This document shows, in pieces, positions 17,478-20,943 of a stretch of 64,000 nt of DNA (within the stretch, counting starts at the first letter, position 1; each line of letters starts with the position of its first letter). The position numbers were made by a program, and so were the translations under genes. Under the pieces are notes generated by a model that saw nothing but the letters and a program-made list of their open reading frames with translations, was not told the origin of the DNA and searched no databases. The DNA is taken from NCBI RefSeq assembly GCF_003063295.1, contig NZ_MUXF01000001.1, forward strand, positions 310,001 to 374,000. Reading direction: 5' to 3'. The stretch comes from Arcobacter lacus (GTDB taxonomy: Bacteria > Campylobacterota > Campylobacteria > Campylobacterales > Arcobacteraceae).

Positions 17478-18710
17478 ATGTTTTTGCTAAAACGGGAATA
17501 TTTTATCCAAAACTTTATAATAAAAGGCTTGTTCACTGCAATTTTATTAAGTTTGTTTATTTACTTAAGTTATTTTGATATTGAAATAAAGATTATCAAT
17601 ACATTAATTGGTCTTTTAGGTATATACTTTTTACTTACAATTCCTAAAAAAGCTCTATTTATAGCAGGATTTTTTACTGGTATTTTATGGTGTAATTGGA
17701 TGAGTGTTAGTTTACAATACTACGATTTGAAATATTTAACTCCTGTTTTAATCCTTGGAATTGGTTTAGTTTATGGAATAATTTTTTATTTATTTGCCTT
17801 TATAGACAAACTTACTATTAGAATATTGATGGTTTTTGGATTTACCTTTTTTGCTCCTTTTGGCTTTAATTGGATGAAATTTGAATTGTTATTTATAGAT
17901 TCTTATATAAGCACTTCAAAAATAGCTTTTGCTTTGATACTTATCTCTTTTTATTTTATTATTAAACTAAAAAAACATAAACTTTTAGGAATTATTCCTC
18001 TTTTATTTATTTTTGACTTTGGAAAGGGAACTTATATAGATACTCCAAAAGCAAAAATTTATATGCCACAAATGTATATAAATCAAGATTTAAAATGGCA
18101 AAAAGAGTACCAAAAAGAGTTAAATGCAAAAAATATTGAGGAAATACACAAAGCAATAGATTTAAAAAAAGATTTAGTAATATTACCTGAAACTGCTTTT
18201 TCAACTGCATTAAATAGAAATATTGTTTTACTAAATGAGTTAAAAAATCTATCTTTTAGTATCGATATAATTACAGGTGCTTTATATGTTGAAAATAATC
18301 AAATATTTAATGCCACTTATCATATAAGCAATGGTGAAGTAAAAATCGCTCAAAAAGTTGTGCTTGTTCCTTTTGGTGAAAAAATTCCACTTCCTAAATA
18401 TTTTGTTGATTTGATAAATAAAACTTTTTATAACGGTGCGCAAGATTATACAGAAGCTTCAGAACCAACTGATTTTGTAGTTTTAGGTGAAAAATATAGA
18501 AATGCTATTTGTTATGAAGGAACAACTGATACAATCTATGAAAATTTAGGTGATACAAGATATATAATAATGACTTCAAATAATGCTTGGTTTACACCTT
18601 CGATTGAGCCAACACTGCAAGATTTGCTTTTAAAATATTATTCAAAAAAATATCAAGTTACAGTTTTTCATATAGTAAATGGAAGTCCTAATAAAATCTA
18701 TCGTCCATAA
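17478..18710 (+). CDS. lnt: Apolipoprotein N-acyltransferase Lnt
   Basis: Lnt transfers the third acyl chain to the N-terminal Cys of lipoproteins at the inner membrane. The 410-residue protein starts with about 170 residues of membrane helices, then a nitrilase-type periplasmic domain. The catalytic triad is visible: Glu in LPETAF (near 237), Lys in VPFGEKIPLP (near 301) and Cys in NAICYEG (near 346). It is shorter than E. coli Lnt (512), mostly at the C-terminus, which ends NGSPNKIYRP without an obvious last helix. It is divergent from yajC, an arrangement I know from Campylobacter. Nine bases separate its stop from that of the DUF4105 gene. Confidence 0.92.
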   Translation: MFLLKREYFIQNFIIKGLFTAILLSLFIYLSYFDIEIKIINTLIGLLGIYFLLTIPKKALFIAGFFTGILWCNWMSVSLQYYDLKYLTPVLILGIGLVYGIIFYLFAFIDKLTIRILMVFGFTFFAPFGFNWMKFELLFIDSYISTSKIAFALILISFYFIIKLKKHKLLGIIPLLFIFDFGKGTYIDTPKAKIYMPQMYINQDLKWQKEYQKELNAKNIEEIHKAIDLKKDLVILPETAFSTALNRNIVLLNELKNLSFSIDIITGALYVENNQIFNATYHISNGEVKIAQKVVLVPFGEKIPLPKYFVDLINKTFYNGAQDYTEASEPTDFVVLGEKYRNAICYEGTTDTIYENLGDTRYIIMTSNNAWFTPSIEPTLQDLLLKYYSKKYQVTVFHIVNGSPNKIYRP

Positions 18711-18719
18711 GTACTGAGT

Positions 18720-20528
18720 TTAAAAGTAGAACATAACTCCTACTTTTACTCTATCTTGTTTTTCATATAAATCATCATTTATATATTTTAAATTTAAAGC
18801 TAAATTTCTATGCATTTTATAAGTAGTAAAAGCTTCAAATTGATTGTTTTCTAAGCTTTTATTATATTTATCGTAAGTGTAATTTACTCCAATATTGAAG
18901 TTTTCAATCCTATTTGTAATAAATCCAATATTTACTCCAGCTGAATATAATTGGTCATTCCCTTTATAATAGATATTTGAACCTAGCATTGAGTAGATAA
19001 AATCTTTATCATTTCCAAAGCTAATTCCCACTTCTGGTTTTACTTTAAAATAATCTTCTTCATCTTTAAAATGTTCATAACCAACATCAATTCCCCAAGA
19101 AATTGGTTTAAATATCATATCTTGTGGAGAGTATGACTTTATTTTTAAAAGTGTAAATCTATCAAGTTTCACATCTTTATCTTTTTGTTTTTTAAAATTT
19201 AATTCAAAAAAATCAATATATGCACCTTGTAAATATCCATCAACAATATCATACATATCATTGTATGCTGGTTTTATACTTGCTTCAAAACTATCATTTG
19301 AATCATAAAATAAACCAATTCTAGCAGAATCATGAGAAATAAGTGGATCAAGAGGTGATTTTATGTTATAAGTTCTTGTTTGTTTATAAGCACTTCGCTC
19401 TTTTAAAAGTTTTAAATAGTTTTTTATATACTCTTTTTTTTCAGTTCCATCTTCTGAACGTTGATATTGAGTATAAGCAATCTTAAAATCTAAATATGAG
19501 ATTTTATCACTTTGACTTAAACTATCTGGTAGTTCTATTTCATCACTTATATAAGCTTTTAAAAACTCTTTATTTTCTATCTCTTCATTTAAAATATGTT
19601 TCATCTTTTTCAAATTTGAGTATCTATATCTTGAATCAACTATCAAACCATCATATTTTGTTAATATTTTTATAGTATCAAGTGGAATTGCTTTAAAATC
19701 AAAATAACTAACTAAATCTAAACTTGGTCTTGCAATTTCCAATAACCATAAAACATTATATGAACAATTTTCTTTGAAAAAATAGTAATTTGCATAAGAA
19801 TCTTTTAGTTCCCAAGTATGAAGAACAAGTTTATTTATCTCTTCTTGAGATAAGTTTAAATCATACTCCCAAACATCTCTTTGTTCAAGGTTGTTATACT
19901 CTTTTATCTTTTCATAATATGGCATTATTGAATATCTTCCTTCATATCCACCAAATAGTCCATTATAAGCAAAAATCAAACCATTTTTTTCATCTGTTTT
20001 TGCTGCATAATTTATAGCATTTGAAATAAGTGGTGTTTCTTTATCTGCTCCAACTTTCAAAAAAGTGTGTCCATACATAGAAGCTGGTGAATTTATATGA
20101 GCAGTAGGGAAAACGATAGTTACATATTTTGCATCTGTCAGTTCCAAAAACTTGTCTAACTCTTCACAAGAATATGGAACTATTTTTTCTTCTAAAGTTG
20201 GAATATTTTCTTTTAGCCACTCTACTCTTAAAGGAAATCTACATAAAACATTATTTGTTCCAGTTTCCAAAGAATTTATAGTTTCAAATAACTCTTCTTT
20301 TAAATCTTCTTTTCCATTATTTGATATAAAAAAGTTAGTTGAATCTATTTCACTAATACCATTTCTGTAGTGCAATAATTTTGCCCAATAAGAATTTTCA
20401 TAAAGTTTATGTTCTTCGATATAATTTTTTAGTTCTAAAGAGTTTGAAGCTGAGAAAAAAAGAGAAATAAGTATAAAATACTTAATTCCTCTTTCTATAA
20501 AATTAGATGTATTTTGCAATTGAATCAA
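18720..20528 (-). CDS. DUF4105 (Lnb N-terminal-type) protein with predicted outer-membrane beta-barrel tail
   Basis: This 602-residue protein has an N-terminal hydrophobic export segment (YFILISLFFSAS, about 17-28) and a papain/NlpC-like DUF4105 domain in the first half, with the conserved His in SMYGHTFLKVG (His154) and Cys in FKENCSYNVLWLLE (Cys255). The last 200 residues alternate polar and hydrophobic residues in beta-strand fashion (SWGIDVGYEHF, GVNIGFITNRI, LALNLKYINDD) and end VGVMFYF, a terminal aromatic typical of outer-membrane barrels. To my recollection DUF4105 is the domain of Lnb, the lipoprotein N-acyltransferase of Bacteroides. The substrate of this protein is unknown. The start overlaps the 3' end of the DUF3015 gene by 26 bp. 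Confidence 0.82.
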   Translation of the reverse strand: MIQLQNTSNFIERGIKYFILISLFFSASNSLELKNYIEEHKLYENSYWAKLLHYRNGISEIDSTNFFISNNGKEDLKEELFETINSLETGTNNVLCRFPLRVEWLKENIPTLEEKIVPYSCEELDKFLELTDAKYVTIVFPTAHINSPASMYGHTFLKVGADKETPLISNAINYAAKTDEKNGLIFAYNGLFGGYEGRYSIMPYYEKIKEYNNLEQRDVWEYDLNLSQEEINKLVLHTWELKDSYANYYFFKENCSYNVLWLLEIARPSLDLVSYFDFKAIPLDTIKILTKYDGLIVDSRYRYSNLKKMKHILNEEIENKEFLKAYISDEIELPDSLSQSDKISYLDFKIAYTQYQRSEDGTEKKEYIKNYLKLLKERSAYKQTRTYNIKSPLDPLISHDSARIGLFYDSNDSFEASIKPAYNDMYDIVDGYLQGAYIDFFELNFKKQKDKDVKLDRFTLLKIKSYSPQDMIFKPISWGIDVGYEHFKDEEDYFKVKPEVGISFGNDKDFIYSMLGSNIYYKGNDQLYSAGVNIGFITNRIENFNIGVNYTYDKYNKSLENNQFEAFTTYKMHRNLALNLKYINDDLYEKQDRVKVGVMFYF

Positions 20529-20943
20529 TTACATTTGCAGAAGTTACATTTTCACTAGAGTAAATTTCTGAGAAATTAGCTTGTAATTTAGCTGAAAATG
20601 CATTTGTATCTTCAACATTCATAAGTTTTGCAACTGTACTTAAAGTTTCACCATGTCCAGCTGAAATATCCATAGCTAATTCATCCATGTTTTCATTTAC
20701 GAATTGATTTAATTTGTCATTTGATACAAAGTTATTTGGTTTATTACAATTTGAAGTACCACTTGAAATACCAAAAGTTTGTGTTCCAGAAGTTCCATTT
20801 GTAGTTGCAGCTAAAACTTGTAATACTGTAGTGTTTTGATTTTTAAGAATAATTGAACCAAGTCCACAACCAGTATTTGTATTATTTGCATAAAGCGAAG
20901 TCGTAAGACCAACTGCTGCTACTAAAGTAACAAGTTTTTTCAT
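20503..20943 (-). CDS. DUF3015 family secreted protein
   Basis: From the ATG at 20943 the protein has 146 residues. That start is preceded by AGGAG at the right distance and begins a clean signal peptide (MKKLVTLVAAVGLTTSLYAN); an ATG 24 bases upstream lacks these features. The mature part has the DUF3015 pattern: GCGLGSIILKNQN, VLQVLAATTNGTSGTQTFG, SSGTSNC, with a likely disulfide pair. It is presumably periplasmic. Function is unknown. Its 3' end overlaps the DUF4105 gene by 26 bp, so the two are co-expressed and probably act together. Confidence 0.85.
   Translation of the reverse strand: MKKLVTLVAAVGLTTSLYANNTNTGCGLGSIILKNQNTTVLQVLAATTNGTSGTQTFGISSGTSNCNKPNNFVSNDKLNQFVNENMDELAMDISAGHGETLSTVAKLMNVEDTNAFSAKLQANFSEIYSSENVTSANVIDSIAKYI

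Follow-up and report, generated by a model that had tools for sequence, protein, structure and literature searches.

A conserved DUF3015/DUF4105-barrel gene pair adjoining lnt in Arcobacter lacus encodes a probable lipid-acyl enzyme predicted to reside in the outer membrane

The lnt-DUF4105-DUF3015 locus of Arcobacter lacus

The DNA analysed here (the window) is a stretch of 64,000 nucleotides from Arcobacter lacus (contig NZ_MUXF01000001.1, positions 310,001 to 374,000), and this work concerns three of its genes, namely lnt, which encodes the apolipoprotein N-acyltransferase, a gene for a 602 amino acid (aa) protein of the DUF4105 family, and a gene for a 146 aa DUF3015 protein (Table 1). An initial annotation had pointed out that a DUF4105 head of the Lnb type, carried on an outer-membrane barrel and paired with DUF3015, lies next to lnt, and it had read this arrangement as a second lipoprotein- or lipid-acylating or -deacylating step at the outer membrane. 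This observation is real, exceeds chance and is correctly located. Its description of an Lnb_N head on a predicted outer-membrane barrel, a DUF3015 partner and an intact Lnt stands, whereas the link to lnt does not: the true unit consists of the DUF3015 protein and the DUF4105-barrel enzyme, and lnt is merely a neighbour. The DUF4105 protein probably acts as a lipid-acyl enzyme and does not duplicate the known acyltransferase.

The product of lnt scored above the cut-offs of the NCBIfam models PRK12291.1 (520 bits, cut-off 427) and TIGR00546 (149 bits, cut-off 132.9), and it retains the counterparts of all three E. coli Lnt residues E267, K335 and C387, confirming the earlier call of an intact gene with a complete Glu/Lys/Cys triad. 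The distance of 9 bases between lnt and the DUF4105 open reading frame (ORF) was likewise recovered, but the two lie on opposite strands, tail to tail, and because of this convergent orientation they do not form one operon. The DUF3015 ORF is located upstream of the DUF4105 ORF, whose start is overlapped by its 3' end. It begins with an ATG at position 20943, preceded by a GGAG site; the assignment of the TTG at 20528 as the start codon of the DUF4105 ORF is uncertain. A scan for promoters and terminators gave no signal better than that seen in shuffled sequence. The closest named match in the collection scan was a metagenome-assembled genome of Aliarcobacter, with 62% identity.

Table 1. Positions of the genes, domains and residues discussed in the text, numbered from the first letter of the window
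Feature	Position	Strand	Basis
lnt, apolipoprotein N-acyltransferase, intact	17478-18710	+	NCBIfam match, triad aligned to E. coli Lnt, synteny; judged to lie outside the module
DUF4105 outer-membrane protein (predicted), 602 aa	18720-20528	-	ORF, Pfam, AlphaFold2
DUF7843 domain, residues 41-107	20208-20408	-	Pfam E=2.3e-20; 66/66 homologues
Lnb_N (DUF4105) catalytic-type domain, residues 125-291	19656-20156	-	Pfam E=1.6e-58; 66/66 homologues
His154, presumed catalytic base	20067-20069	-	Invariant 66/66; just N-terminal to strand 156-160
Cys255, presumed nucleophile	19764-19766	-	Invariant 66/66; residue 1 of helix 255-266
Predicted 12-strand outer-membrane beta-barrel, residues 403-601, then terminal Phe602	18726-19322	-	AlphaFold2, Foldseek, amphipathic strands, DUF7840
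First gene of the two-gene unit, for a secreted DUF3015 protein of 146 aa	20503-20943	-	Pfam E=4.5e-40

Domains, catalytic residues and predicted structure of the DUF4105 protein

The match of the protein to Lnb_N (PF13387) has a score of 197.6 bits against a cut-off of 22.2, and a second Pfam domain, DUF7840, was detected over residues 394-601 (E=7.6e-35). The order of elements is a signal peptide, recognised by inspection only, followed by DUF7843, Lnb_N, a helical linker and a 12-strand barrel corresponding to DUF7840. The architecture DUF7843-Lnb_N-DUF7840, which is also found in Pfam in this order, is common to all 66 aligned homologues. His154 and Cys255, which had been singled out together with the family assignment, are invariant in these sequences, as are C96, C121, R217, W220, Y222, E240 and N254, the last of which is the neighbour of Cys255. 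The C-terminal residue is aromatic in 63 homologues (Phe in 50, Tyr or Trp in 13 more).

The designation "Lnb-type", if taken to mean Lnb function, did not hold. The Lnb equivalog model NF051878 gave only 17.7 bits when searched against the protein and 19.1 bits when searched against the genome, the cut-off being 550. Weak matches to this model were seen in 56 of the 66 homologues, and in the window protein the match spans just the His-to-Cys core, where profile positions 44-148 align to residues 150-256 with matching spacing of the His and Cys. Based upon this score and its restriction to the core, Lnb orthology was rejected, and the protein is a member of the family but not Lnb itself. Lnb of Bacteroides shares with it the Lnb_N domain and the His/Cys spacing. 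Lnb is an inner-membrane protein, whereas the enzyme described here has a DUF7843 domain and a predicted 12-strand barrel, is partnered by DUF3015 and coexists with a resident Lnt. Lnb, in contrast, is described as standing in for a missing Lnt (Armbruster 2024, cited in PMC12994826).

An AlphaFold2 model based upon the 66 natural homologues (mean predicted local distance difference test score, pLDDT, 92.6; predicted template-modelling score, pTM, 0.89) consists of a signal-like N-terminal helix and a head of mixed alpha/beta structure, followed by a helical linker (residues 305-379) and 12 strands (residues 403-601), the strands lying in the region (about 400-602) where structure prediction had been proposed as a check for a barrel. 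In Foldseek searches this part matched the 12-stranded barrels NanC and KdgM (TM-score 0.67-0.68 on the target) and also FapF and OMPLA. The amphipathicity of its strands is 2.67, compared with 1.56 +/- 0.33 in shuffled sequences (p about 0.0005). These results, together with Phe602, bear out the suggestion of a C-terminal barrel ending in Phe, and the even number of strands, their amphipathic character, the aromatic C-terminus and the signal peptide (by inspection) are all features of outer-membrane barrels. A 12-strand barrel is thus predicted to hold the protein in the outer membrane. In outer-membrane barrels with an even number of strands the N- and C-termini are both periplasmic, and from this topology the head would be expected to face the periplasm.

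Within the modelled head, Cys255 opens a helix and His154 occurs earlier in the sequence, an arrangement like that of the permuted NlpC/P60 (papain-like) branch, in which His precedes Cys (PMC12994826; PMC10318531; PMC7387801). As this superfamily includes peptidoglycan hydrolases (PMC10318531), the protein could instead be an outer-membrane-anchored periplasmic peptidase or amidase acting on peptidoglycan or on proteins. We consider such an activity quite improbable, because the characterised members of the permuted branch act on lipids (PMC12994826; PMC7387801) and the families nearest to the enzyme are Lnb and Tox-Act1.

Association of the DUF4105-barrel enzyme with DUF3015 across genomes

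The distribution of the two proteins was surveyed in 298 genomes of Campylobacterota from 58 genera. Lnb_N is present in 62 of them, 49 of which have a strong match (E <= 1.4e-47) and 13 a diverged form only. DUF3015 was found in 49 genomes (19 of the 58 genera), and these are exactly the 49 that contain the strong-class enzyme. If the two were independent, a coincidence of this kind would be expected once in 4e56 when counted by genome and once in 1e15 by genus, both figures being overstated owing to kinship. Among the sampled members of the genus to which the window belongs, six have both proteins and four have neither, and the two have thus been gained or lost together.

A similar result was obtained from 80 named loci of Campylobacterota, Desulfobacterota-type bacteria (labelled "Deltaproteobacteria"), Nitrospirota, and Gamma- and Betaproteobacteria. 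Sufficient upstream sequence was available for 69 of these, and in 67 of them the gene immediately upstream, in the same orientation, is that for DUF3015 (66 identified by script, plus L134, where the chosen start of the enzyme gene overlaps DUF3015). The carriers include Vibrio, Marinobacter and Acinetobacter, and the module spans at least three bacterial phyla. The pairing with DUF3015 that had been noticed in the window is therefore strengthened to a near-obligate association across phyla.

Thirteen loci of Nitrospirota, Gammaproteobacteria and species labelled Deltaproteobacteria (L097, L101, L116, L119, L124, L127, L128, L129, L130, L131, L139, L141, and L142) contain, in or beside the unit, a gene for an alpha/beta-hydrolase (Hydrolase_4), which often shares a few bases with the enzyme gene. 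Its product has a Cys after a signal-like N-terminus and is by inspection a lipoprotein. Outside Campylobacterota the hydrolase gene recurs as the third member of the module.

A second, diverged class of DUF7843-Lnb_N-DUF7840 proteins (520-614 aa), usually lacking DUF3015, was also observed in Campylobacterota (L028, L029, L030, L031; G005, G021, G042, and others). Small genes adjoin the diverged-class protein in L030 and L031, one of those in L031 being secreted and PEGA-like. One genome has a diverged DUF4105 copy (G186:C1:1301910-1303103) together with a DUF3015 that has diverged to the same degree (E=3.2e-11), which suggests that the pair duplicates and diverges together.

Characteristics of the DUF3015 protein

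The DUF3015 protein has a signal peptide by inspection and no lipobox. In an alignment of 58 sequences Cys26 and Cys66 are invariant, as is a CGxG motif near the mature N-terminus. The C-terminal half is helical, and the conserved N-terminal half, when predicted alone, gave a pLDDT below 50, a low confidence that is compatible with folding of this part on the enzyme. No match was obtained for the protein with Foldseek and no credible relative of solved structure by sequence. A literature search on DUF3015, DUF4105 and their Pfam numbers revealed no paper on this pair, nor was the coupling to DUF3015 or the barrel topology of the DUF7843-Lnb_N-DUF7840 architecture described in any paper found; DUF3015 appeared solely in a table of expression data, where the Leptospira gene is down-regulated. 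No paper was found either for the Acinetobacter locus near ampC. The module is thus uncharacterised in the literature searched.

The near-strict one-to-one pairing with overlapping genes, the invariant CGxG motif and an N-terminal half that is not confidently folded alone would also accord with a dedicated modifying or export pair, in which the enzyme acts upon DUF3015 by acylation, cleavage or thiol chemistry and the barrel serves as its exit or anchor. This alternative appears unlikely to us, as a plain disulfide between the two invariant cysteines would suffice to explain them.

lnt and the genomic site of the module

The proximity of lnt to the module is seen in most congeners that carry the module, but only within the genus and family of the window. 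None of the 80 named loci showed lnt beside the module, although the profile was seeded from Arcobacter-type sequences and a distant lnt could escape it. In six congeners without the module, cca and lnt meet tail to tail and yajC-secD lies on the other side of lnt, which is the gene order of the window minus the module. Since lnt directly abuts cca in these species, the module is a cassette at the lnt/cca site. What follows lnt varies within the genus, and genes of the TonB-receptor type, a short-chain dehydrogenase gene or a transposase were also observed there (L145, L146, L153, L154, and L155). A functional unit of lnt and DUF4105 at this locus is suggested by their adjacency in most module-bearing congeners; it is, however, hardly tenable, being largely refuted by the convergent orientation, the absence of lnt from the loci fetched, the direct lnt/cca junction in module-free congeners and the other genes or transposase at this spot in further ones. 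The meaning originally attached to the adjacency is accordingly not sustained, and functional linkage to lnt was rejected on synteny.

The co-occurrence survey that had been proposed led to the same result. All 298 Campylobacterota genomes possess Lnt (290 of them with a score over the curated cut-off), as do all 35 other module-bearing genomes tested, and its adjacency to the module is local only. As every module-bearing genome tested has Lnt, replacement of Lnt by the module was also rejected. Three genomic contexts have been reported in which Lnt takes the place of DUF4105 proteins (PMC12994826), a pattern from which the barrel-bearing form departs.

These results also bear upon the possibility, favoured in the initial annotation, that the enzyme edits lipoproteins at the outer membrane by N-acylation, deacylation or remodelling after the action of Lnt and Lol. 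Lnb, from the same domain family, is described as a lipoprotein N-acyltransferase (PMC12994826), LnsA of S. aureus, a permuted NlpC/P60 protein, N-acylates lipoproteins together with a partner (PMC12994826; PMC7387801), and the Lnb model weakly touches most homologues. Against this, outer-membrane lipoproteins should already be triacylated where Lnt is universal, the adjacency of lnt is local to the family and the Lnb model remains far under its cut-off. Lipoprotein editing is thus conceivable, but we regard it as rather unlikely.

Proposed function of the DUF3015/DUF4105 pair

The DUF4105 protein is best explained as a Cys-dependent acyl-hydrolase or transacylase that is tethered in the outer membrane and faces the periplasm, with phospholipid as its likeliest substrate and the DUF3015 protein as its obligate partner, a reading to which we assign a probability of about 0.45. 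The evidence from this work consists of the domains, the invariant dyad, the predicted barrel, the near-strict pairing with DUF3015 and the co-existence with Lnt, while the class of fold, and the acyl chemistry in which relatives engage, are taken from the literature; the periplasmic side, the phospholipid substrate and the role of DUF3015 are what we infer from these. In the mechanism proposed, His154 would activate Cys255, which would take an acyl chain off a glycerophospholipid as a thioester and then transfer it either to water or an acceptor, as in phospholipase A or transacylase chemistry, and DUF3015 would be the obligate periplasmic subunit or the acceptor.

OMPLA (PldA) of E. coli is likewise a 12-strand outer-membrane barrel, and phospholipid acyl hydrolysis is possibly a role common to both. 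The active site of OMPLA is serine-based and lies on the barrel itself, whereas the enzyme described here carries a separate Cys-based head. A catalytic His and Cys are shared with Tox-Act1, from the sister clade of DUF4105, which is a phospholipase acting on phosphatidylglycerol and phosphatidylethanolamine; unlike the enzyme described here, Tox-Act1 is a secreted antibacterial effector with an immunity gene, for which neither a barrel nor DUF3015 is described (PMC12994826). LnsA/LnsB of Staphylococcus aureus similarly comprises an NlpC/P60-type acyl enzyme that needs a second protein, but it functions in a Gram-positive membrane, and LnsB is CAAX-protease-like and encoded apart from LnsA (PMC7387801). 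An acyl reaction on lipids or lipoproteins at the outer membrane is plausible. The alpha/beta-hydrolase neighbour fits lipid turnover, and the presence of Lnt in all genomes tested argues against a redundant Lnt role.

Several observations weigh against this explanation. The assignment of the substrate is drawn from relatives. When the whole enzyme was compared by Foldseek with the PDB and viral libraries only barrels were retrieved, which crowded out the head, a sequence-profile search yielded no credible PDB relative, and a profile comparison with E. coli YiiX gave no alignment. The low confidence of the N-terminal half of DUF3015 may simply reflect a shallow alignment. Lastly, the hydrolase occurs only in a minority of loci, and it was not detected in the Arcobacter lacus genome in a search that had no positive control.

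The first function known for the DUF4105 family, that of Lnb in replacing Lnt, is a recent finding. Because the Lnb-type head is borne on a predicted outer-membrane barrel, is tied to DUF3015 across phyla and co-exists with Lnt in all genomes tested, the family should serve a second function, which probably lies in the lipid homeostasis of the outer membrane and can be tested directly by means of the tight pair and its invariant Cys. As a tentative extension, the pair may form a widespread two-protein machine of the outer membrane, in which a barrel-anchored Lnb-type Cys acyltransferase takes acyl chains from phospholipids of the inner leaflet and transfers them to a dedicated acceptor; DUF3015 would be the obligate subunit or that acceptor, and the machine would work alongside Lnt.

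Plasmid-borne and broken copies of the module

In plasmid-database records the pair was found in eight of nine cases, the ninth being an ISAba1-flanked copy cut between the two genes. In Acinetobacter the DUF3015-DUF4105 pair adjoins blaADC (L063 and L159). On pJ9-3 (L063, 80023-89708) an ISAba1-flanked segment has taken the DUF4105 gene and blaADC and left DUF3015 behind, and the enzyme gene here hitch-hikes with the beta-lactamase. A broken second DUF4105 copy, consisting of two overlapping frames, is located close to an intact pair in L080 (911-1847, minus strand).

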